A DNA stretch of 23,831 bases from a virus. The position numbers were made by a program, and so were the translations under genes. The stretch's first letter is position 1. Each line of letters starts with the position of its first letter. Positions 11,002-23,337 of the stretch are shown piece by piece. Where the stretch lies: the IMG/VR virus record IMGVR_UViG_3300046485_000020, positions 1 to 23,831 of that record; one strand, written 5' to 3'. Under the pieces are notes generated by a model that did no database searches, was not told the origin of the DNA, and saw only the letters and a list, made by a program, of their open reading frames with translations.

Positions 11002-11925
11002 TCAATACTCCCACGGGAGCCAGCGAGTAGTGTTGTCACCGATGGTGCCAAACTGGAAATGACCGGGAACCAGCATCAGCCCGTCATCAGGAATGCGCGT
11101 CTGGTCGCGGAGCATCGTGACCAGTCCATCGTTCCCGAGCGCGAACCACGTCTTCGCCTGATCCGATCGGCCCTCTCCCTTGTCAGTCAGGAAGTGCCAC
11201 TTGGCCCATGAAATCAGGTACAACTCGTAGTCCTGCGTGATGTCGATAGCATCGCCAGTGGCCGTTGTGGTCGGGATCGTCATGCGCCGGTAGTAGCGCA
11301 ACTGAAGGTCGTCCTCCGCAACAGGAGGAGTCAGCAGCCTGATCTTTCCCCGGTTCCCGACCATGAATAGGTCGTACCAGTACGGGGTCGAGGTCGTGTA
11401 CTCGTTGTACATGGAGCGGTCATAGGTGCGGCGGTTCACGTACCTAAGTTCCACGTTGGAGTTGTGGAGCCTCGCCCCATAGGACGCCTTGAAGTCGGAC
11501 GGCAGGTCGTACATGTCGCGGTTGATCGTGGCCGAGACGACCGTGTTCCCTGACGTGAAGCCCGAGACCTGCCCGTAGAACCCGAACGATCCCGAAGCCG
11601 TGGCCGAGATGCGTGTCCCGAGAGCGAAACCGGAGCACATCAGGAAGTCATCGGGAAGCAGTCCATGTCCCACGGGAGCAAGAGCAGAGGACTGTCCGGC
11701 TGATGCCGTGATGCCCGAGACCGTGAAGGGCGCGAAGACGCGAATCGGCGCGGATTCCGTTCGCAGGAAGTCCCAGTTCGCCCGGTTGTTGAAGTGCTCC
11801 ATGGCGGCAAACAAGGAACGCCCGGCGCGGGTCGTCATCTCCCCATCGCCGGACGCGCCTACCGTATCCGCGATCTCCTGGCAGACCGCGCTAACCGCTT
11901 TCGTTGACGGCTGGAACAGGGCCAT
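11002..11925 (-). CDS. Short-tail adaptor protein (T7 gp11-like head-tail connector)
   Basis: A protein of 307 residues. It opens with a helical part (TKAVSAVCQEIADTVG), followed by an aromatic-rich core with DLPSDFK, an R-rich strand pair (VNRRTYDRSM), YYRRMTIP and a C-terminal helical stretch (YELYLISWAKWHFLTDKG). These are the hallmarks of podovirus adaptor or tail tubular A-type proteins, which form a ring between portal and nozzle. The start has AGGGGGTG upstream and lies 35 bases inside the end of the GT4 gene. The assignment rests on pattern and on position directly before the nozzle gene. Confidence 0.7.
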   Translation of the reverse strand: MALFQPSTKAVSAVCQEIADTVGASGDGEMTTRAGRSLFAAMEHFNNRANWDFLRTESAPIRVFAPFTVSGITASAGQSSALAPVGHGLLPDDFLMCSGFALGTRISATASGSFGFYGQVSGFTSGNTVVSATINRDMYDLPSDFKASYGARLHNSNVELRYVNRRTYDRSMYNEYTTSTPYWYDLFMVGNRGKIRLLTPPVAEDDLQLRYYRRMTIPTTTATGDAIDITQDYELYLISWAKWHFLTDKGEGRSDQAKTWFALGNDGLVTMLRDQTRIPDDGLMLVPGHFQFGTIGDNTTRWLPWEY

Positions 11926-13231
11926 CCGTGCTCACCCCCTGCGCCGCGAGTTCACGGCGCTGCTCGTCCTCATCCTCGGCAACGATTCGCGCCCACTGGG
12001 CATCCGTAGGCCGCGGCTGCTCCACCTTGCGTTCCTCTCGCAACTCCTCCCACGACTGGATGATCTTCGGGACTTCCTTCATGGCATCCCGATTCTGAGA
12101 GACCCAGTCCTTCGCGTTCGCCGCGAGTGACTTCCTCAGCTTCACGTCCTCGATCAGGCGTGAAAGCTGGTCCTCAAACTGCTGAGGCGTCTCGAACAGC
12201 AGCCCGGTTTCTCCCTCAAGGATCTCGTCCTTGTAGGGGCCAGTCGCCTGAGCCAGTGTAGCCGCAGGCTTTCGCAGAACAGACGCCTCATAAAACTTGA
12301 TGGCCGACCGGCAGTTGTTGAACACGTTGGCAGACAGCGGGGCCAGAGAGATGTCATGGTCCATCATGACCAGACGCAGCTTGTACTCCTGATACGGGCA
12401 CCAGTCGTGGAACGTGTAGCGGTGCGGAGGGATCAGTTCGTTCACCCACGGGTACTGAGCACCCCAGATGATCCAGTGGACCTCGGGGTAGCGGCGGGTG
12501 ATGTTGCCAAGAGCCTCGCGCAGAGGGAACCAGTCTTCGTAGTGAGCGATCCCTCCCTGCCAGAGAATCTTGATCTTGTCCTGCTCCTGCTCCATGGAGA
12601 CCTGAGGGTAGTGGTCGAACCGCATGAGGTTCGGGAACACTCGGAGTCGTCTCGGAGTCACTTCTTTCTTTACGGCCTCGGCCACGTAGGGAGTCGAGCA
12701 CTGCACCTGATCGGCCATCTCAAGAATCTTGCGATAGCTCGCCAGCGTCTGACGGTTGCGAGAGAGAGAGAAGCCGTTCTCTCCGTCCTTCCACAAAACC
12801 CGACGCTCCCCGTCCTGCACGACCCCGATGTGATGGCCTAGTGGAATCTGGTTCCCGTCGAGGTCTCGGATGCCGAGGTTCTTGAATGCCTGGTTGAGAG
12901 GACTGACGTTGAAGATGTTGTCGTCCGTCTCCACGATGATCGAGGGCGGATACTTCCAGTCGCCATCACGCTTGGAGGGGAGGAACGACTGCACGCCACG
13001 GATGTTGTTGACCGGCTGCTCTCCAACGGGCTGGTAGAGGTAGATGATGTCCGCTTCACAGAAGTTCTTGATCCGATCCTCGGCAGAGACTCCCGCGTCG
13101 TTTGTATCTATGATGGACTTTACCGGAAGACCAAGGACCGCAGCCGTCTCAAGCGGCACGCCCAATCTATAGTAAAATGAGGCTGAGTGCTTATTCGGGA
13201 TCAACGTATACAAGACCATCGGCTTGGTCAT
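11891..13231 (-). CDS. GT4-type (GT-B fold) glycosyltransferase
   Basis: A protein of 446 residues with the two-domain GT-B pattern. The N-terminal domain begins MVLYTLIPNKHSASFYYRLGVP. The C-terminal domain has KIKILWQGG, the acceptor/donor motif SAIKFYEASVLRKPAATLA, and ILEGETGLLFETPQQFEDQL, the conserved end of the GT4 nucleotide-sugar site. A charged tail of about 45 residues extends beyond the domain. It would move a sugar from an activated donor to an unknown acceptor. It is coupled to the gene before it by ATGA and overlaps the adaptor gene by 35 bases, so it is an integral part of the structural operon. It has no membrane segment. Confidence 0.85.
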   Translation of the reverse strand: MTKPMVLYTLIPNKHSASFYYRLGVPLETAAVLGLPVKSIIDTNDAGVSAEDRIKNFCEADIIYLYQPVGEQPVNNIRGVQSFLPSKRDGDWKYPPSIIVETDDNIFNVSPLNQAFKNLGIRDLDGNQIPLGHHIGVVQDGERRVLWKDGENGFSLSRNRQTLASYRKILEMADQVQCSTPYVAEAVKKEVTPRRLRVFPNLMRFDHYPQVSMEQEQDKIKILWQGGIAHYEDWFPLREALGNITRRYPEVHWIIWGAQYPWVNELIPPHRYTFHDWCPYQEYKLRLVMMDHDISLAPLSANVFNNCRSAIKFYEASVLRKPAATLAQATGPYKDEILEGETGLLFETPQQFEDQLSRLIEDVKLRKSLAANAKDWVSQNRDAMKEVPKIIQSWEELREERKVEQPRPTDAQWARIVAEDEDEQRRELAAQGVSTDGPVPAVNESG

Positions 13232-13662
13232 TCTGTGGCCTCGGCAGGAGGTTCAGGGTTGATGACTCGCTCAGTCACCTTGAGACTCGATCCCGGGACA
13301 TCCAGCCCGAAGATCGAGAGCGGGAGCTTCAGGTCATCGGCAGCCGTGCCCCGGCCACCGTTCCTGCGCTGGTAGGTGATGTACTCGGGGTGACGGTCAA
13401 CGAAGGCGTAGAACTTGCGCTTGTCCTTGAGGAAGTCGGGTTCAATGATCTTCGCAGCCATGAGCATCGGCACGTTGACGAACGAGGCAACGCGCCTGAA
13501 CTCATGCCCCTTGTACCCGGTTCCATCGTCAGAGTCCCGCAAGTCCTTGATCGCATCGAGACGCGGCCCGTAATAGTCGGGGGCCGACTTCACGAGTGTT
13601 TCGGCGGACATCAGTGAGTCGAACTCCGACTGGTTCTCGTTACGGGCCACGTAGAAGTTCAT
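13228..13662 (-). CDS. Hypothetical protein, possible head-tail or capsid accessory
   Basis: A protein of 144 residues from the ATG at 13662, one base after the preceding stop. An earlier in-frame start at 13809 would overlap that gene by almost 150 bases, and its extra residues look like out-of-frame translation (Arg/Pro-rich). The body is charged, with FYVARNENQSEFDSLMSAE, VNVPMLMAAKIIEPDFLKDK and a conserved-looking FVDRHPEYITYQRR; the end is Pro/Glu-rich. No family was recognised. It lies between small unknown proteins and the GT4 gene and ends in an ATGA overlap with it. Confidence 0.65.
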   Translation of the reverse strand: MNFYVARNENQSEFDSLMSAETLVKSAPDYYGPRLDAIKDLRDSDDGTGYKGHEFRRVASFVNVPMLMAAKIIEPDFLKDKRKFYAFVDRHPEYITYQRRNGGRGTAADDLKLPLSIFGLDVPGSSLKVTERVINPEPPAEATE

Positions 13663-13663
13663 C

Positions 13664-13975
13664 TCACTGGTTCCCCGTGTCGGGAGCACCGCGGAAGATG
13701 TTCGTCGGGTTGGCGTTGGGACCGGGATTCGGAAGACCCTGTTCCTGAACGTCAGTGGAGCCCTCGGGAATGGCCCCACCCGTCGGGACCTGAGGATCGA
13801 ACTTGCCATCCGAGTCAGTGTTTCCGGGGTTGGAAGCAGGGAATCCCCACTTCACTCCGGGCTGATCGGTGGAGTTGGACGTGTCCAGAACGGGCTGCGA
13901 AGCGCCAGAAGACGGGGTGCCCGACGTGTAGTCGTGCGCGTCCCCGCTCGTGCCGCCCTTGAAGATCACGGGCAT
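13664..13975 (-). CDS. Small Gly/Pro/Asp-rich hypothetical protein
   Basis: A protein of 103 residues, low in hydrophobic residues and rich in Gly, Pro, Asp, Ser and Thr, so probably flexible or disordered. It begins with MPVIFKGGTSGDAHDY and ends with IFRGAPDTGNQ. The start has a perfect AGGAGG at 13981-13986, five bases upstream, which suggests strong expression. Such proteins beside the major capsid gene may be decoration or head-completion proteins, but no homologue was recognised. Confidence 0.65.
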   Translation of the reverse strand: MPVIFKGGTSGDAHDYTSGTPSSGASQPVLDTSNSTDQPGVKWGFPASNPGNTDSDGKFDPQVPTGGAIPEGSTDVQEQGLPNPGPNANPTNIFRGAPDTGNQ

Positions 13976-13986: not shown

Positions 13987-14143
13987 ACTGGTTAACCGCA
14001 GCATCGAGCTGCGGAGAAGTTTCTGGACCAGCCTTCACCCCGAGATCGGGAGCGCCCTTGAAGATGGTGCCATTTCCCTGCGCGAGCATCGCGTCCTCCG
14101 AGTAGACCTTCGTCTGCTCGACCGTACCCTTGACCTGGATCAC
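13985..14143 (-). CDS. 52-residue hypothetical protein
   Basis: A short frame with a GTG start that overlaps the stop of the preceding gene (GTGA at 14143-14140) and a TAG at 13987-13985. It begins MIQVKGTVEQTKVYSED and contains GNGTIFKGAPDLGVKAG. It fills exactly the space between two genes of the operon, and its stop overlaps the AGGAGG of the next gene, so it fits the tight coupling seen elsewhere. The IFKGAPD sequence reappears as IFRGAPD in the neighbouring 103-residue protein. Function unknown. Confidence 0.65.
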   Translation of the reverse strand: MIQVKGTVEQTKVYSEDAMLAQGNGTIFKGAPDLGVKAGPETSPQLDAAVNQ

Positions 14144-14478
14144 TTGCCCCTCCCCTTGGAAAGAGCGCCGGGCATCCCGGGGAAAGCATTCGCGTCACGA
14201 GTGCGTCGGTTCGCGTTCTCACGCCCTGCATCGGGAGTGCGGAAGGTCGGAGACGGGTTGTCCAACGACAGGCCACCCACGCTGATGCCATCTTCCCAAG
14301 CGTCCACAGGACCACCGGGGAGTCGTCCGACCGGATATGACGCGGCGTTGCCCTGATCCACGTCGAATGCCGCAAGGTCCTGTTCGGGCTGTCCGGGACC
14401 ACCGGCCGGAATCCGAGTCGGGTCCCAGCCGCGAGTCTTGCTGGCCGCGATCAAACCGCGACTCTGATTGCCTGCCAT
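14140..14478 (-). CDS. Small hypothetical protein, Gly/Pro/Arg-rich
   Basis: A protein of 112 residues, hydrophilic and rich in Gly, Pro, Asp and Arg, with few hydrophobic clusters. It begins MAGNQSRGLIAASKTRGWDP and ends with a basic GALSKGRGK. The ATG has AAAGGAG upstream, and the stop overlaps the GTG of the next gene. No family was recognised. It is one of several small, probably flexible proteins directly after the major capsid gene; capsid decoration or completion is possible. Confidence 0.65.
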   Translation of the reverse strand: MAGNQSRGLIAASKTRGWDPTRIPAGGPGQPEQDLAAFDVDQGNAASYPVGRLPGGPVDAWEDGISVGGLSLDNPSPTFRTPDAGRENANRRTRDANAFPGMPGALSKGRGK

Positions 14479-14784: not shown

Positions 14785-15747
14785 CTAGCCGTTGGTAACG
14801 CCGGTCATGGCAGCCCACGAACTCGGGTGATCGAGCTGAAGCGTGCACTCGAAGAGCACGATGCCCCTCGTGTGATCGCCCGACTTGCCCATCGGCTTGT
14901 GCTGCGGGGGACGGTAGAACGCGATCTTCGCCATCGACCGATCCCCGATGTAGTACGCGCCCACAGCGGACGACGTGCTGATCGGGATGAAACGGTCGGT
15001 GATGACCGCGTACAACTGGTTGAACGGCGTCTCGAACACGTCGATGTTCGCCACGAGCCGCTGATCGGTCGCCGCGATGTTACGGACGTTGCCCGAGCCA
15101 GACGACACGGTAGCGTTCACGAACTGCCTCTTGCTCGCAGGAGCGAACCAGATCGAGTCCGGCTCAGCACCGTTCTCGAACAGGGTCTGCGACAGCGTGC
15201 AGATGTCAGCCGTGGTCACACCACCAGAGGAACTCCCGGAGATCGAGATGCCGAACCCGCGGAACCCGGCCATGAGCGGAGCCGTGGTGGCCTCAGCACC
15301 CGTGGCGGAACCCGTCGAGTTGACGGCCCACAGCCGCGACTCACAGTTGCGAGCCGTGACCTTGAACTCCTTCATGACCTGATGCTCGTACATGTCGCGG
15401 ATGCCAGCGGGATTGGCGTCCCGCTCGCGATCGGACACGAAGACGTGACGCGAGAAGATCTGCGTTCCGTTGACGAGCCGGGTGGGTGAAGTGAGCGTGT
15501 CACCAGAGAAGTCCACAGCCTCGGCAACACCGGCAGTGGAGGTCGCGGCGAGAGTGTCCACGGTCCACGAGTGGACCACGTCCTTCGCACGGATCTTGGG
15601 AGCACTGGAGAACATCGGCGTCTGGAACGAATCCAGAATCGTCACGATGTCCACTAGGTCCTCGTGGTGAACGCCTGTGGCGTTGGGGAAGAACCCAACG
15701 TCAAAGGTTGAGAGAAGACCAGCGGATACGCACTGCGAACCGGGCAT
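14785..15747 (-). CDS. Major capsid protein (DUF5309/SU10-like, HK97-type fold)
   Basis: A protein of 320 residues matching the DUF5309/SU10 capsid family. An N-terminal DLVDIVTILDSFQTPMFSSAP is followed by KDVVHSWTVDTLA, SPTRLVNGTQIFSRHVFVSD, the helix EHQVMKEFKVTARNCESRLW and MAGFRGFGI. The C-terminal half has ICTLSQTLFENGAEPDSIW and IAFYRPPQHKPMGKSGD. Members self-assemble into the icosahedral shell. The start has GGAGG upstream. It follows the scaffold gene by 22 bases, the usual order. Its Ser/Thr-rich loops (ISGSSSGGVTT, ATDQ) would be plausible sites for the glycosylation inferred from this phage's glycan genes; no modification can be seen from sequence. Confidence 0.88.
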   Translation of the reverse strand: MPGSQCVSAGLLSTFDVGFFPNATGVHHEDLVDIVTILDSFQTPMFSSAPKIRAKDVVHSWTVDTLAATSTAGVAEAVDFSGDTLTSPTRLVNGTQIFSRHVFVSDRERDANPAGIRDMYEHQVMKEFKVTARNCESRLWAVNSTGSATGAEATTAPLMAGFRGFGISISGSSSGGVTTADICTLSQTLFENGAEPDSIWFAPASKRQFVNATVSSGSGNVRNIAATDQRLVANIDVFETPFNQLYAVITDRFIPISTSSAVGAYYIGDRSMAKIAFYRPPQHKPMGKSGDHTRGIVLFECTLQLDHPSSWAAMTGVTNG

Positions 15748-16827: not shown

Positions 16828-17139
16828 CTATGCCTTCGTTCGGACGGGCTTTGCCATCCGAGACACCCGCAGGGCTTCTTGCTCGTGGAGTTTCAGCGCG
16901 TAATTGGTGGCATCGTCCTCGTTGTCAAAAATACCGAGGTGCTGCCGCGTCCTACGATATTCTGAAATCGCGTCCTTGTTGCTCACCACCCTGCCGCCGA
17001 CAACCGTCGGGATCAGGGTGAATCCGCTGTCCGTACCAACACTTATGCTGCGAACCGTGCTCACCGTTCCGTCCGCGTTCTTAACCGGACGAATCTTCGT
17101 TACGTCAATGTTCCCCGGAACTCTCGGTCCGTTGCCCAT
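16828..17139 (-). CDS. Standalone conserved phage domain (GNID / LIPTVV / HLGIFD type)
   Basis: A protein of 103 residues made of one domain that I recognise as a recurring phage module: GNIDVTKIRPVKNADGT, STVRSISVGTD, LIPTVVGGRVVSNKDAI, then a YRRTRQHLGIFDNEDDATNYA helix and a LHEQE end. It is usually found inside large internal virion proteins or transglycosylases, but here it forms the whole protein. Its molecular role is not known. It is coupled to the portal gene by a TAATG overlap, which suggests a head or portal-associated job. Confidence 0.75.
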   Translation of the reverse strand: MGNGPRVPGNIDVTKIRPVKNADGTVSTVRSISVGTDSGFTLIPTVVGGRVVSNKDAISEYRRTRQHLGIFDNEDDATNYALKLHEQEALRVSRMAKPVRTKA

Positions 17140-19097
17140 TAGTTCGTGGTTCCCGGCATCTTGCCTGTGTTGGCCGTCTGCATCAGACGACCCAGTACCT
17201 GCGGGTCCATCTGGTCCAACGATGAACTCACCATGGTTGCGACTGACTCAGGACTGACACCAGCCTGCTCGGCCGTCTGGTTGACCGCAGGAACCTTCTG
17301 CACCAGCAGGTCATCGACGTTCGTGAAGTCGAACAGATCGAATGCCTGCCGCGCGAAGTTGCCCCAGTTGACCAGTTGCAGCAAGGCCGGATTCGAGGAC
17401 ATCATCTGGAGCAGGGCCACCAGGTTCTGCTGCCTCACCGATCGGCCCATCATCTGCGAAGCGCCCACAGCCCTCGCACGGTAGTCAGGAACAAGATCGT
17501 CGTAATCGATCTGCTCGTTGACCGCATGGTACGGAAGCCCGGTGTCCGGGTCCGTCGTTGCGATGCTCCCGAGAATCTTGATCTCCTGAGGAAGCGGCAG
17601 CCAAAGCCTGTCCATGTGGCGGAAGGCGTCGGCAAGAGGCTCAATGAAACCTTCCTCGGCCAGACGAGTCTCCATCGCCAGACGGGTCAGGGCATTCTCC
17701 TGCCTCCCAAGGAAGCCTCTCGCAGTCTCGCGGGCAGGACCAGCCTGACCCATCAGGCTCTCCGTCTCTCCGGTCCCGAGCTGCATCATCTGGAACAGCT
17801 GGCCGATCTCCGTGTAGGCGGCATTCAGCCCACTCATGTTCGGGACCAGAGCGCGGATGTTGCTCTCATCCGCTGCACCGTCCACGAGGATGATCCGCCC
17901 TGCACGGGTGAACAGGTGCTGCGTGTTGATGTTCGCCCCCGCTGAAGCCACGTACATCGGGTCAATCAGCGAGTCCAGAGCATCCAACTTCTGATTCGCC
18001 AGTCGGTTAGCGGTCTGCTGGGGACCAAAGGCAATCTCTGTCTTGGCAACCCCGTCGAACGAGTACGGGTCCGGCATCGGGCAGTAGGTGACGAAGGGCA
18101 TCTGGTTGTTGCCCATCGCCCCTTCGCGGTTCTTCATGACCACTCGACCATTGCCGACTGCAATGCAGCGGAACCGAATGCCGTCAGGAGCGAACTCTGC
18201 CGGTACGTACCCGTGCATCTCCCAGATTTCTACGGGCTTGGAGAACCGCTCGGACTGGCGGGCCTGATAGTCGTACTGGGTCCGGTACGTCACCCTGCGC
18301 TGGGCGAACTCCGCAGCCGCAGTTCCCTCAAGGGGATAGGACCGCAGGGCTTCCACAGCCTGTGGGTCGAAGTACGGGTTCGGTCCCGCGGCGTCGTTGA
18401 TGAGGTCGTCAAGGTCCACCCAGTAGCGGTGAATGGCCCACGCCATGTCCGAGAGCCTGATCTTGCCCGGCTGCTGCCAGAAGTCCAGCCGGTCCACCGT
18501 CGTCCAGTCCGGACCGTTGAACATCTCGGCGTCGTACTCACGGACCACGGGAACCGAGTAGCCGGGTGCGACTTGCTCCAAACGGCGAATACGCGTCTTG
18601 CGCGTCAGGTTCTTCCAGCCGTAGCGGGCGATCCCTGTCCCACAAATGTCTGCGGACAGGAAGAAGTCGCATGCCTTGATGATCGAATCGGCGTCCTTCA
18701 TCTGCGCCGAAATCAAGACCTCGTTCTTCTTGGCACGAGCACGATCCTCGGGAGCGTAGCCCTCGAACGAAACGATGGGCCATGACCCGAACGACGATTG
18801 CACCTTCCGGGCAACATCGCTTTGGATCATGGCGAACGTGAAGGGAATGCTCACGTTGTTGCGGAATGCCGCCAGTCGTCCCTTCCAGACTCCACGGTAC
18901 GTGTCGTACCACTGCTGGAGCTTGGTGAACGTTCCCTGGTTGTACCGCTGGGAGTGCTGCCTGCGAGCATCCACAAGTTCGATGATGCGTGCGGAGGACA
19001 CACGCACGTTCGGCAACTGAGCAGGAGCGGGGCTGTAGCGAGTCGAGCCGGGGCCACCCTTGCCCGCATACGGGTCGCCGCGTGGCGTCTGGATCAT
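17139..19097 (-). CDS. Portal protein (P22/T7 head-tail connector type)
   Basis: A protein of 652 residues, intermediate between T7-type and P22-type portals. It has an N-terminal helical part (IIELVDARRQHSQRYNQGTF, WYDTYRGVWKGR), VSIPFTFAMIQSDVARKVQ, a wing region with ICGTGIARYGWKNLTRK, the conserved FVTYCPMPDPYSFDGVA, then NRLANQKLDALDSLIDPMY. The C-terminal part is a Gln/Met-rich helical barrel-like end. Portals form the dodecameric ring through which DNA is packed. The ATG has GGAGGG upstream. It starts the head-gene block and is separated from the terminase by the glycan cassette. Confidence 0.87.
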   Translation of the reverse strand: MIQTPRGDPYAGKGGPGSTRYSPAPAQLPNVRVSSARIIELVDARRQHSQRYNQGTFTKLQQWYDTYRGVWKGRLAAFRNNVSIPFTFAMIQSDVARKVQSSFGSWPIVSFEGYAPEDRARAKKNEVLISAQMKDADSIIKACDFFLSADICGTGIARYGWKNLTRKTRIRRLEQVAPGYSVPVVREYDAEMFNGPDWTTVDRLDFWQQPGKIRLSDMAWAIHRYWVDLDDLINDAAGPNPYFDPQAVEALRSYPLEGTAAAEFAQRRVTYRTQYDYQARQSERFSKPVEIWEMHGYVPAEFAPDGIRFRCIAVGNGRVVMKNREGAMGNNQMPFVTYCPMPDPYSFDGVAKTEIAFGPQQTANRLANQKLDALDSLIDPMYVASAGANINTQHLFTRAGRIILVDGAADESNIRALVPNMSGLNAAYTEIGQLFQMMQLGTGETESLMGQAGPARETARGFLGRQENALTRLAMETRLAEEGFIEPLADAFRHMDRLWLPLPQEIKILGSIATTDPDTGLPYHAVNEQIDYDDLVPDYRARAVGASQMMGRSVRQQNLVALLQMMSSNPALLQLVNWGNFARQAFDLFDFTNVDDLLVQKVPAVNQTAEQAGVSPESVATMVSSSLDQMDPQVLGRLMQTANTGKMPGTTN

Positions 19098-19130: not shown

Positions 19131-19973
19131 CTAAATCGTCTCGTCCACAGTTGTCAACCACTTATCTCTGAAAACAGGCCAGACCGTCCTCAGTCCGATC
19201 TCGGTGTCGTTGACCTGATTTTCCCCGAGGTTGTTCCAGATCACCCGGGGAGCATCGTTTCCGATCCGGTCATGGACGCGGATAGCCGGGATTTTGAGCG
19301 CTCCGGCCACCGTAATCGGTGCCGAACCGCACCCGATCATGGCCCGGGACCCGGCAATGAACTGTGCCAGCTTCAGGAAGTCCCCACCGTCATCGAACTC
19401 GGACCAGCCGGGATAGGCCGTCATACCGACCTCCCGGTCATCCGGGGAGCCGACGAAGGCGATGTCATCAAACAGGGCCTCCAGTTCCTCCCTGATCGAA
19501 GAGAGGAACCGCCACATGGTAGGGGTCGAGCGGTTGTGGGGGCACACGGACTGGCCGTGGACCACGAGGCGGTTCTTCTTCTCCACATCCCCGACCTCAA
19601 GGCTGGGAGTGTTGGACAAGTCTTCAACCTCAACCCTGACCGGAACTCGGGAATCCTGGAGGGTCTGGAGGGTGATCTGCCGAGCGGGGAAGGAACGCAT
19701 CCCGAGGTGGTAGATCGTGTTCCCCTCGAACGCGCTGGTCGGCAGGTTCAGATGGAATGGCTGTCCTCCGCAACCGTAGTTCTCGACGCCTCCGACGAGC
19801 TTGACTTTCTCGACGCATGACTGGGCCTCGAACAATGAAACGAGTGGCTTGCAGGTTGTCTCGTCCATCCAGAGTTCAATCTTCTCTCCAGATTTCTTGG
19901 CGTAGTGATAGGCGACAGGCCACTGAAGGATGGAATCGCCAATCTTCCCCGGCATCGTGAACACAGTAGCCAT
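19131..19973 (-). CDS. GT9-like glycosyltransferase (heptosyltransferase-type)
   Basis: A protein of 280 residues with the GT9 pattern. An N-terminal MPGKIGDSILQWPVAYHYAK corresponds to the GxxGDxxLxxP loop of ADP-heptose-type transferases. The C-terminal FLKLAQFIAGSRAMIGCGSAPITVAGALKIPAI corresponds to the donor-binding segment. Length is slightly short for the family, mainly in the linker. The natural donor and acceptor cannot be read from the sequence. It overlaps the stop of the FkbM gene (TAATG) and is the last gene of the glycan cassette, before the portal. Confidence 0.75.
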   Translation of the reverse strand: MATVFTMPGKIGDSILQWPVAYHYAKKSGEKIELWMDETTCKPLVSLFEAQSCVEKVKLVGGVENYGCGGQPFHLNLPTSAFEGNTIYHLGMRSFPARQITLQTLQDSRVPVRVEVEDLSNTPSLEVGDVEKKNRLVVHGQSVCPHNRSTPTMWRFLSSIREELEALFDDIAFVGSPDDREVGMTAYPGWSEFDDGGDFLKLAQFIAGSRAMIGCGSAPITVAGALKIPAIRVHDRIGNDAPRVIWNNLGENQVNDTEIGLRTVWPVFRDKWLTTVDETI

Positions 19974-20587
19974 TACGACTCCTCCTTGAGCAGCCAGACA
20001 TCATTGTGACAGTTGCGACCTATTTTCTTGTACCCGAAAGACTCAAGGTAGAGATCAATCGGTCCCACCTTATCCCAGCACTCAATAACCAGCACTTTCG
20101 GCTTCCACTTCTCCAGATCACAACCCTTCAACACACTCAACTCAGTTCCCTCGGTATCCACGCACAGCAGATCCAGTTGCGGGAACTGCCAGAGGGCCAA
20201 AAGGCTGTCCACCGTGCAGACAGGCACAGGGATCTTCTTGAACCGCACCCCTTCTGTTGGGTAGAGGTCTTCCCTCAGCGTCGGGGTCAGAGCCGAGAAC
20301 GCTTCGGGGTTGAGTTCGTTGACATGGAAGATCGCTGATCCTGACTCGTGAGCACACGCGCACATGTGAACGAATGCCCGATGCCTCTTGAGCATGGGTC
20401 CGAACTCAGGGTTCGCCTCCACACTCAGGATCGTCCAGCGATGAGCCGCCTCAAGCTGGTAGGTCGTGTTGATCGAGATGCCATCCGAGGCACCTACGTC
20501 CACGCCCCAGCCGATGTAGCCTTCAGGGAACTGGTCGAGGATGAACTGAGCGAGATGTCCGTTCGGAGGCCAGAGCGTGTGGTTCAT
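19973..20587 (-). CDS. FkbM-family SAM-dependent methyltransferase
   Basis: A protein of 204 residues with the FkbM fold motifs: GVDVGASDGISINTTY (SAM site, about residues 28-43), SVEANPEFGPML, LLCVDTEGTELSVLKGCD (a family hallmark) and VLVIECWDKVG. FkbM enzymes methylate hydroxyl groups, often on sugars or polyketides; here the target is presumably a sugar because it sits among glycosyltransferases. It is coupled to both neighbours by overlaps (ATGA and TAATG). The early part of the coding DNA is somewhat lower in G+C than the structural genes. Confidence 0.9.
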   Translation of the reverse strand: MNHTLWPPNGHLAQFILDQFPEGYIGWGVDVGASDGISINTTYQLEAAHRWTILSVEANPEFGPMLKRHRAFVHMCACAHESGSAIFHVNELNPEAFSALTPTLREDLYPTEGVRFKKIPVPVCTVDSLLALWQFPQLDLLCVDTEGTELSVLKGCDLEKWKPKVLVIECWDKVGPIDLYLESFGYKKIGRNCHNDVWLLKEES

Positions 20588-21318
20588 TGAACCGACCCGG
20601 AGACTTCCGCTGTCTCCTTGCGCTTGGGTCGGCCTGCGGCCTCATGTCCCTTGAGGTCATTCAGGGCATCACCGAAGTGACTGGCAAAGAAGTCGTAGAG
20701 CGCGATGATGTCTGCGGGATAGCGGTCACGGTTCTTGGAGTCCAGTCCCGGATGGTCAATCCAGAACTCACTCGGGAGAGACTGCCGCAGGGACTCCGTC
20801 GCCAGACCAAGAGCGGCGACCACCGAAGGCCATCCCCAGTGATAGAGGCCCGGCCACGCGAAGTAGCCCAGCCTCTTGACCCACTCCCTAGAGACGAACG
20901 GCATGTCCACGTCCTTGCTCTTGTGAGCAGGGGCCACGACCATTGCACCTGCGGTGATCTGACGGATGACATGCTCATCCCACGCAGGAGTCGTGACCTT
21001 GGCATCGTCCGGCACGAACCCGAAAGCGGCGTAGCTCTCCAGCTCATCGCGGGAGATCAGGTTCGCTGCTGCCAGTGGGCCAATGCGAGGACCCCGTCTG
21101 ACGATCATGTGAGCCAGTGGACTCTCGGTCCAGCCATAGAGAGTCTTCTGGTCATCGTCAATGTAGGCCGCCACGTCCACTGACGTGCTCGTGTGCAGGA
21201 CCGAGTGAACGAGGTCAGCCAGTTGCTTGGGGCGGTCACGGGTCGGAACGATAACCAGGATCTTGGCTTCTGGTCCCACGGCCTTGGGCCACGGGTCGGG
21301 AGTCCGGGTCTTGGTCAC
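20584..21318 (-). CDS. GT-A-like glycosyltransferase, paralogue 2
   Basis: A protein of 244 residues with a GT-A-like nucleotide-sugar fold. An ILVIVPTRDRPKQLADLV start strand is followed by YIDDDQKT, RRGPRIGPLAAANLI, the probable metal-binding FVPDDAKVTTPAWDEHVI, and GYFAWPGLYHWGWPSV. It shares these blocks in order with the protein at 22684-23337. The C terminus is a charged tail (AAGRPKRKETAEVSG). The GTG start overlaps the methyltransferase stop (GTGA). No signal or membrane segment is present, so it acts in the cytoplasm. Donor and acceptor are unknown. Confidence 0.75.
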   Translation of the reverse strand: MTKTRTPDPWPKAVGPEAKILVIVPTRDRPKQLADLVHSVLHTSTSVDVAAYIDDDQKTLYGWTESPLAHMIVRRGPRIGPLAAANLISRDELESYAAFGFVPDDAKVTTPAWDEHVIRQITAGAMVVAPAHKSKDVDMPFVSREWVKRLGYFAWPGLYHWGWPSVVAALGLATESLRQSLPSEFWIDHPGLDSKNRDRYPADIIALYDFFASHFGDALNDLKGHEAAGRPKRKETAEVSGSVQ

Positions 21319-22556
21319 AGGACAAATTCCACGTTCGGGAGCGGGAAGATCATCGTCGTTCCGGACCTCAGCAAGTCCTTCTCCCTCTCCACGAACTCGT
21401 TCCTAAACGCCCATGGCAGTACCATCAGGTGCTTCGGCTTCTCGGCACGCATGTAGTCCTCGGTGTAGATGTCCAGCCACGATCCCGACATCTTGAGTCC
21501 GTACTTGAGCGGGTTCCGGTCCGCGATTCCCCTGAACGCACTATCGAGGTCGAGGTACTGGAGCAGGGCACAGCCCTTCGTGCTCGCTCCATAGAGCCAG
21601 AGGCGGTCATGGTAGGAGATCGAACCCGTGATGAGATCGGTCATTGAGTTCTTCCACTTGACCGTTCTCGACGCGAACAGTTCTGCGTCGTCCTCGCTGA
21701 CCCGCCGATGCTCAGAGAGCAGGATGGCCCCACTGCGGTAAACGATCTTCTCCGCAGCCACGCGAATGGACCCACCGTTCACGTCGTTGTAGGTGATGCC
21801 GATGATGACCAGCCCGTGACGACGGTACAGAGCCTCCAGTGCGTGAACGTCGTAGTAACACAGGTGCTCATGGCAGATCGCGTCGAAGGCGTTCTTGCGA
21901 AGCATCGTCGGGGAGTCGTTCAGTTGGTTGATCCAGACCCCGTCAGCGCTCAGGCACTTGACGATGTCCGCAACGAACTTGTTCGGGTCATCGAGGTCGT
22001 AGAACATCGCAGCCGACGTGATGACATCACAGGCACCCGTCACCTTGCTCAAGCTCATGCCCGTTGGCTTCATCAGGCACTCGTGATCGGCCGTGAAGAA
22101 GTCGGAGATCACGTGGTTCGCAATCCCCTCCAGGATGGGCTTGAAGTTGAGCGCTGGCTCACAGGCGATCTTGGTAAAGCTGGGAGGGACCTCGCCCAGC
22201 AGGTAGCCGTCATTCGCACCGATGTCCAGCCACGTTCCCGCATGATGGTAGAGCAGGCCCGTCTTCACGAGATCGGTCAGGGCGTCCTTCATGGTCTGGT
22301 TGACGCTCGACCGATACCAGAACTCGCGGTAGAGCAGGTCGGGGTCAACCGTGTGCTCAAGCTGGAGCAGTCCACATGACGAGCAGCGCATCAGGTTGAG
22401 CGGAGACCTCGGGAGGTCGAGGTCCACCTTCTTGACGAAGTCCACGAGATACTGGTCCCCGAGATAGAGAACGGGGTTCAGTTTGCCGTCTAGGCATGAC
22501 CGGCAGTGAGTCCGCTTCTTCGACACCTTACTCGGGGACATCTCGGCAATGGTCAT
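21315..22556 (-). CDS. Sugar C-methyltransferase-like protein (TylC3/NovU type)
   Basis: With the ATG at 22556 the protein has 413 residues, the usual family length. It has an N-terminal zinc site (Cys 18, 21, 58 and 61), a SAM site LDIGANDGYLL (about 110-120), the motif AICHEHLCYYDV (CHEH at 228-231), NGGSIRVAA, and a C-terminal Rossmann-like domain with LWLYGASTKGCALLQYL. Relatives C-methylate NDP-keto-deoxysugars; the HEH is part of their active site, with Tyr in place of this Cys in the TylC3/TcaB9 type. The start is chosen for AAGGA at 22564-22568, seven bases upstream. The frame is open to an ATG at 22712, which would add 52 residues before the zinc site and overlap the gene before it. 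Confidence 0.85.
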   Translation of the reverse strand: MTIAEMSPSKVSKKRTHCRSCLDGKLNPVLYLGDQYLVDFVKKVDLDLPRSPLNLMRCSSCGLLQLEHTVDPDLLYREFWYRSSVNQTMKDALTDLVKTGLLYHHAGTWLDIGANDGYLLGEVPPSFTKIACEPALNFKPILEGIANHVISDFFTADHECLMKPTGMSLSKVTGACDVITSAAMFYDLDDPNKFVADIVKCLSADGVWINQLNDSPTMLRKNAFDAICHEHLCYYDVHALEALYRRHGLVIIGITYNDVNGGSIRVAAEKIVYRSGAILLSEHRRVSEDDAELFASRTVKWKNSMTDLITGSISYHDRLWLYGASTKGCALLQYLDLDSAFRGIADRNPLKYGLKMSGSWLDIYTEDYMRAEKPKHLMVLPWAFRNEFVEREKDLLRSGTTMIFPLPNVEFVL

Positions 22557-22563
22557 CATCCCG

Positions 22564-22568
22564 TCCTT
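22564..22568 (-). promoter_or_regulatory. Ribosome binding site deciding the methyltransferase start (AAGGA)
   Basis: AAGGA lies four bases before an ATG at 22559 and seven before a second ATG at 22556. With either one the protein has the length typical of sugar C-methyltransferases. The upstream ATG pair at 22712 and 22709 has only a weak AGG. Confidence 0.5.
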
Positions 22569-22683
22569 GGATACGCTCGTCCTGAGCCTTGTTCGCATCA
22601 TGACTTCGGCCTCGTCATCCTTCCTGCGCGGAATCCCGCCTTCCATGCCATCGCTATGAACTTGATCCACATCCACGACAGTT

Positions 22684-23337
22684 TCATTTGGTCGATTGAA
22701 CCAGAGCATCATTCAACCTGCTAATAGCTCCGGGAAAGTCTTCAAGCAAGAAACTGAATACCCCCTCCCTGTCACTTTGCTCAGACACCGTTGCAATCGG
22801 AGGAAGACGGTTGTGCTGGACGTTGACCTTGTTCGCTCTTGGCCTGAAATACGCTGTAGCCCTCGCGACTGACCCAAGTACGATAGGCCAGCACCAGTGT
22901 TTGAATCTCGGAGGGGCAAACCATCCCATCGCACGATAGAACCTTGCTGTGACGAACGGGGTATCTACCCACCACAAGCCACCATTCTCGGGATCTCCGC
23001 TGTTCGGAATGTCGAACATGCAAATCGGATGTTCCTCTGCCAGATCAAGAAGATGCCTGTCCCATCCGTCAACAGTCATGGTGGAGTCGTCAGGCAACAT
23101 ACCGACGACACTGTGATCGTTAAAGTAGAGTTTGGCCAGCAGGTTCATTGATGCCACGGAACCAATCCTAGGACCTCGATGAATCACCGTAGCAGCAATG
23201 TCTTTGGTCAATGAAAGGTCGTCGTCCAAGTAAACCACAACGTCTACTAGCGAACTGGTCGCAGCTATTGAGTCAAGTAAAGTCGGAAGCATCTCTGGCC
23301 TACGAGATGGGCAGAGAACAAGAACGCGATCGTTCAT
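22684..23337 (-). CDS. GT-A-like glycosyltransferase, paralogue 1
   Basis: A protein of 217 residues with the same ordered blocks as the protein at 20584-21318: RVLVLCPSRRPEMLPTLLDS, VVVYLDDDLS (DDD at 38-40), HRGPRIGSVASMNLL, GMLPDDSTMTVDGWDRHLL and a GWFAPPRFKHWCWPIV block. A GT2-like activity on an unknown acceptor is inferred. The ATG overlaps the terminase stop (ATGA), which places it inside the late operon. The DNA is visibly less G+C rich (near 50% by eye) than the terminase and portal genes, suggesting later acquisition. Confidence 0.72.
   Translation of the reverse strand: MNDRVLVLCPSRRPEMLPTLLDSIAATSSLVDVVVYLDDDLSLTKDIAATVIHRGPRIGSVASMNLLAKLYFNDHSVVGMLPDDSTMTVDGWDRHLLDLAEEHPICMFDIPNSGDPENGGLWWVDTPFVTARFYRAMGWFAPPRFKHWCWPIVLGSVARATAYFRPRANKVNVQHNRLPPIATVSEQSDREGVFSFLLEDFPGAISRLNDALVQSTK

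Follow-up and report, generated by a model that had tools for sequence, protein, structure and literature searches.

As a rule, the glycosyltransferases of phages are regarded as accessory enzymes that act on host LPS or on DNA. Among the described systems closest to the locus studied here is the virion glycosylation of Che8-type mycobacteriophages, in which capsid and tail-tube subunits carry glycans (Freeman 2023, as reported in PMC11256854 and PMC12619734) and phage-encoded glycosyltransferases are proposed to act on virion proteins (PMC11256854, PMC12619734). There the glycans have been chemically demonstrated on the capsid and tail-tube subunits, whereas the system described here is predicted from its genes. 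In Maravista, a phage related to the Che8 type, the genes are found towards the 3′ end of the genome, while the gene described below is fixed inside the head-tail genes of SU10-type podoviruses. Gene 5 of Streptomyces phage Zuko belongs to the same broader enzyme family (profile E-value 1.8e-51), lies close to the terminase, portal and capsid genes and adjoins a UDP-glucose dehydrogenase gene. However, it is located before the terminase and not at an adaptor, and Zuko is not annotated as an SU10-type podovirus. The Manatee Spring podovirus ctKR88 (MW202524) has an SU10-type major capsid protein (MCP) followed by several glycosyltransferase genes, but these gave no match to the GT4 profile used here. 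Literature searches gave no direct precedent either for glycosyltransferases within the head module of SU10-type phages or for pseudaminic acid genes in phages.

The window, by which we mean the whole stretch of DNA analysed, is a 23.8 kb virus record that encodes an SU10-type portal protein (17139-19097; Pfam SU10_portal, E-value 4e-16), an SU10-type MCP (14785-15747; SU10_MCP, 1e-47) and an SU10-type head-tail adaptor of 307 aa (11002-11925; SU10_adaptor, 8e-10), all of them, like the other features described below, on the minus strand. The MCP, portal and adaptor profiles scored 163.4, 59.1 and 39.8 bits, which is in each case above the cut-off (24.1, 30 and 27, respectively). Downstream of the MCP gene lie three small genes, which encode the Gly/Pro-rich protein s1 (112 aa, 14140-14478), the Gly/Pro/Ser/Thr-rich protein s2 (103 aa, 13664-13975) and s3, a protein of about 144 aa from its likely start that has no Pfam match (13228-13662). 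The s3 open reading frame had been listed as 13228-13809, which is probably an over-extension due to the first-ATG rule; the likely start at 13662 directly follows the s2 stop codon. The GT4-type gene occupies positions 11891-13231 as a single open frame of 446 codons that begins with ATG. It joins s3 through a 4-base ATGA overlap (13228-13231) and shares 35 bases (11891-11925) with the adaptor open reading frame, and it is separated by 5.9 kb from the other five glycan-type genes (19131-23337). The initial annotation had described a complete GT4 enzyme between small genes and the adaptor, overlapping on both sides and about 6 kb away from the other glycan genes, and in all these respects it was accurate. 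With dN/dS values of about 0.12-0.17 against three relatives, and a mean column identity of 67% in an alignment of 22 orthologues, this stretch is, judged by these two measures, a real gene beyond chance that is under purifying selection as a protein.

The GT4 protein matched the PHROG 7162 glycosyltransferase profile with an E-value of 5.1e-27, and its scores for the Pfam families Glycos_transf_1 and Glyco_trans_1_2 were slightly below the cut-offs. For Glycos_transf_1 (PF00534), it reached 23.8 bits against a curated cut-off of 26.4, which a distant relative (L110) exceeded with 45.2 bits. An AlphaFold2 model (pLDDT 88, pTM 0.84) has the two Rossmann domains of a GT-B fold, and these align to GT4 structures: residues 4-404 superpose on GT-B enzymes of the GT4 type such as BshA (Z 28.4 over 326 residues, rmsd 2.9; 3mbo_C), and a Z of 27.5 was obtained for 2jjm_A, which is titled family GT4. 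Over the same residues, the fold is shared with BshA, PimA, WaaG and PglA (Z 22-28), as are two residues of the donor-site region in the C-terminal part, Lys312 and Glu315, but the sequence identity to these four enzymes is only 11-16%. Unlike them, the window protein contains Trp-Gln-Gly-Gly-x-Ser/Ala-His in its C-terminal domain, Cys307 at the position of the first Glu of the E-x7-E motif, and a C-terminal helical tail, part of whose coding sequence overlaps the adaptor gene. Nine catalytic-domain residues (D103, D104, Q225, G226, H230, N305, K312, E315 and R366) are invariant across 33 GT4 sequences down to about 26% identity, E315 being the second Glu of the motif. The first Glu is not universal among GT4-like enzymes. 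The protein is probably enzymatically active, although catalysis is not certain because of Cys307. When the same motif patterns were searched in 84,980 cellular genomes, only two loci were recovered, one of which has the phage MCP-GT4-adaptor layout, so this subfamily is largely phage-specific. A cellular origin of the gene was considered and rejected, as it could be based on only one weak cellular locus (L059, 28% identity over about 200 aa). L058, a contig binned with a Parcubacteria genome, shows the phage layout of MCP, glycan genes, GT4 and adaptor, and for that reason it is probably a virus contig within the bin.

Relatives, all of them uncultured and with several loci drawn from the same contig, were collected separately with the GT4, the adaptor and the capsid protein as queries. 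GT4 was present in the same place in every close-relative locus that extends past s3, and wherever it was missing the locus stopped short of this place. In these relatives, GT4 is 58-84% identical to that of the window and always precedes the adaptor where the contig reaches that far; among the long contigs it was found in 14 out of 14. Many close relatives likewise show the 35-base overlap of GT4 with the adaptor and its ATGA overlap with s3, and in members of the close group without these overlaps GT4 and the adaptor still almost touch, with one exception (L025) where the adaptor open reading frame is cut. Scans with adaptor sequences as the sole query found GT4 upstream in 38 of the 39 close-group loci, the remaining one beginning inside the adaptor. 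The initial annotation had asked whether GT4 and a structural neighbour are conserved together, and for the adaptor they are, since the adjacency was seen in every adaptor locus of sufficient length even though GT4 was not the query. In one relative (L042:13041-14264) the GT4 frame lacks approximately the first 18 residues, perhaps through a frameshift or misassembly.

Among 19 relatives and the window, the median distance was lowest for GT4 (0.50), followed by the next tail gene (0.74), the adaptor (0.79) and s3 (1.03), which means that GT4 is more conserved than the adaptor and that s3 evolves roughly twice as quickly as GT4. The GT4 distances correlated with those of MCP plus portal in the same set (Mantel r 0.81, tree structure uncorrected), and on this correlation GT4 is inherited vertically with the head module. 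These data bear on the idea that GT4 is a moron, a mobile passenger gene not tied to this module, for which one could cite other PHROG 7162-like phage glycosyltransferases in unrelated places, such as beside the primase/helicase in Phapecoctavirus. The gene nevertheless occupies an identical position in all relatives whose contigs extend to it, evolves more slowly than the adaptor and shows distances congruent with those of the head genes, and no close relative with an empty s3-adaptor junction was found. As a passenger would be absent or displaced in some close relatives, we reject this reading on synteny and distance congruence and consider it barely credible.

A profile scan of viral contigs brought in 70 GT4 relatives ranging from 84% down to 26% identity. 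All distant members (about 26-34% identity) that extend far enough have an SU10-type adaptor downstream, mostly touching and often with a 4-base ATGA overlap, and the adaptors of L127 and L101-L103 were confirmed by Pfam or profile. Adaptor-only scans of the distant loci placed GT4 upstream in 21 of 21. Here, as for the close group, the adaptor profiles had been built from GT4-carrying loci, and a diverged GT4-less branch could escape them. Such branches were encountered elsewhere: in some phages with capsid proteins of about 25-27% identity, the MCP is followed by a small gene and the adaptor but GT4 is lacking, and ctnlZ23, ctXG6705 and Venkman retain an MCP, a small gene and an SU10-like adaptor but no GT4, as judged for cultured phages by annotation and a profile search of the fetched stretches. 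A tblastn comparison of the adaptor protein with cultured phages gave no match. Because the GT4-less branches keep the capsid-adaptor layout, GT4 is lineage-specific and was gained or lost at that depth. The initial annotation had reasoned that relatives with the same neighbours and no GT4 would indicate independent movement of the gene; none were seen within the family, and they appeared only at great depth (MCPs about 25-27% identical).

The genes adjacent to GT4 raise the possibility that its acceptor is a specific neighbouring product, either one of s1-s3 or the adaptor. The GT4-adaptor adjacency is almost absolute, and group-1 adaptors have an additional Ser/Gly/Ala-rich segment, which by alignment spans approximately residues 57-136 of the window adaptor and is missing from more distant SU10 adaptors. 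In a structure model (adaptor pLDDT 78), however, this insert is folded into confident beta strands, and we therefore rejected it as a disordered acceptor; group-2 adaptors, moreover, lack the insert and are still paired with GT4. The initial annotation had also pointed to small Ser/Gly/Pro-rich proteins beside GT4 as candidate acceptors. This composition applies to s1 and s2 (Gly/Pro/Ser-rich) but not to s3, which abuts GT4. The order of the small genes changes among relatives (MCP-s1-s2-s3 in 20 loci, MCP-s1-s3-s2 in 5 and MCP-s3-s1 in 2), and in some relatives they are parted from GT4 by extra genes. Together with the fast divergence of s3, this permutation argues against the small proteins as the obvious acceptor. 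It should also be noted that the order of phage late genes is conserved for reasons unrelated to substrates, and that adjacency of GT4 to a gene does not show the substrate. Overall, a specific neighbour as acceptor seems unlikely to us, and by gene order it is the adaptor, not the small proteins, that is the fixed partner of GT4. Homing-endonuclease-like genes (HNH_3, LAGLIDADG-like) were observed between the small genes and GT4 in some relatives (L029:8282-8761, L042:12501-12971 and L013:11842-12339).

The five other glycan-type genes of the window are located between the presumed end of TerL and the portal gene. They encode a GT9-like protein, so read from its sequence and without Pfam or PHROG match (19131-19973), an FkbM-type methyltransferase (19973-20587; Methyltransf_21, E-value 8e-18), a GT2-like glycosyltransferase (20584-21318; PHROG 14945, 6e-17), a methyltransferase of the sugar C-methyltransferase type (21315-22712; Pfam Methyltransf_13/23/14, 3.5e-22) and a second GT2-like glycosyltransferase (22684-23337; PHROG 14945, 3e-12). 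In the 16 complete TerL-portal intervals of the window's group, the GT9-like gene was always present and the FkbM-type and C-methyltransferase genes were each present in 14. In the far group, GT2, WbqC-like, methyltransferase and kinase-like genes are followed by GT4 within the MCP-adaptor interval. Judged from these arrangements, GT4 is functionally part of a set of genes for glycan assembly, also in genomes in which it is located away from the others.

The content of this set (GT2, WbqC-like, methyltransferases, NeuB/Pse-like) resembles that of O-antigen assembly genes, and the glycosyltransferases of pelagimyophages have been interpreted as modifying the host surface (PMC7029224). Hence, GT4 and the other glycan genes could alter the host surface polysaccharide late in infection, so as to block superinfection or to keep released phages from adhering to debris. 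This is the main rival reading, which we hold to be possible though rather doubtful. It accords poorly with the near absence of the GT4 subfamily from cellular genomes under the same search patterns and with the fixation of the gene by the adaptor and not in the variable tail-fibre region. Furthermore, no tyrosine integrase was found in 14 long contigs, which excludes lasting lysogenic conversion. Less likely, like the passenger reading, is DNA glycosylation, in which the enzymes would decorate modified bases of the phage genome as a protection against restriction. DNA-acting phage glycosyltransferases are well known (literature cited within PMC12619734), but the present genes are placed among late head genes, those of the methylated-sugar and nonulosonic types do not suit such a role, and the 14 long contigs contained no thymidylate-synthase-type base-modification gene in a search whose control was positive. 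A TET/JBP-type search was uninformative, as its control also remained without match. We consider DNA glycosylation very improbable.

The reading that we prefer, and to which we assign about an even chance, is that GT4 is a core late enzyme of a group of SU10-type podoviruses that builds a virion glycan together with the TerL-portal glycan cluster. Its product would be a cytosolic, retaining GT-B (GT4-type) glycosyltransferase that is translated together with the head-tail proteins, directly before the adaptor. With the two GT2-like enzymes, the GT9-like protein and the two sugar or FkbM-type methyltransferases as partners, it would transfer sugar from a nucleotide-sugar donor to a virion-borne glycan, for which the capsid or a connector protein is the most likely carrier, and particles would leave the cell with a sugar coat, whose purpose we can only infer. 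The phage-specific subfamily, the core status, the late-operon position, the lack of a tyrosine integrase and the mycobacteriophage precedent suggest such a role, as does the company of glycan and sugar-nucleotide genes that GT4 keeps in distant relatives. On the other side, late expression beside structural genes would also suit a modification of the host surface, WbqC-like and NeuB-like genes occur in LPS pathways too, and cultured SU10-type relatives make particles without GT4. A stricter version, in which virion assembly in this lineage has glycosylation as an obligatory step, GT4 glycosylates a head or connector protein during its synthesis, coupled to the adaptor by the overlap, and proper maturation does not occur without it, appears improbable.

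In a deep group of uncultured podoviruses, GT4 is thus as fixed as a capsid gene and passes down together with the head module, and its constant place before the adaptor suggests that adding sugars belongs to the normal making of these particles. Should the particle be what receives the sugar, glycosylation of virions would be ancient and central in a phage group that is abundant in soil and water, and more than a mycobacteriophage curiosity. The GT4-adaptor junction also offers a simple marker for finding cultured relatives. At this same junction, sugar-nucleotide genes have been inserted in distant relatives. One such set (L103:8120-12312) comprises a PseB-like dehydratase, a NeuB/PseI-like synthase, a cytidylyltransferase and a GNAT acetyltransferase, and it is at most pseudaminic-acid-like because its NCBIfam scores are under the equivalog cut-offs. 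In L101 this spot holds a cytidylyltransferase gene, and in L105 it holds genes for a dTDP-glucose dehydratase-like protein and a NeuD-like acetyltransferase. In one further distant relative, a radical SAM/B12-binding protein is encoded between GT4 and the adaptor (L104:6786-8246).
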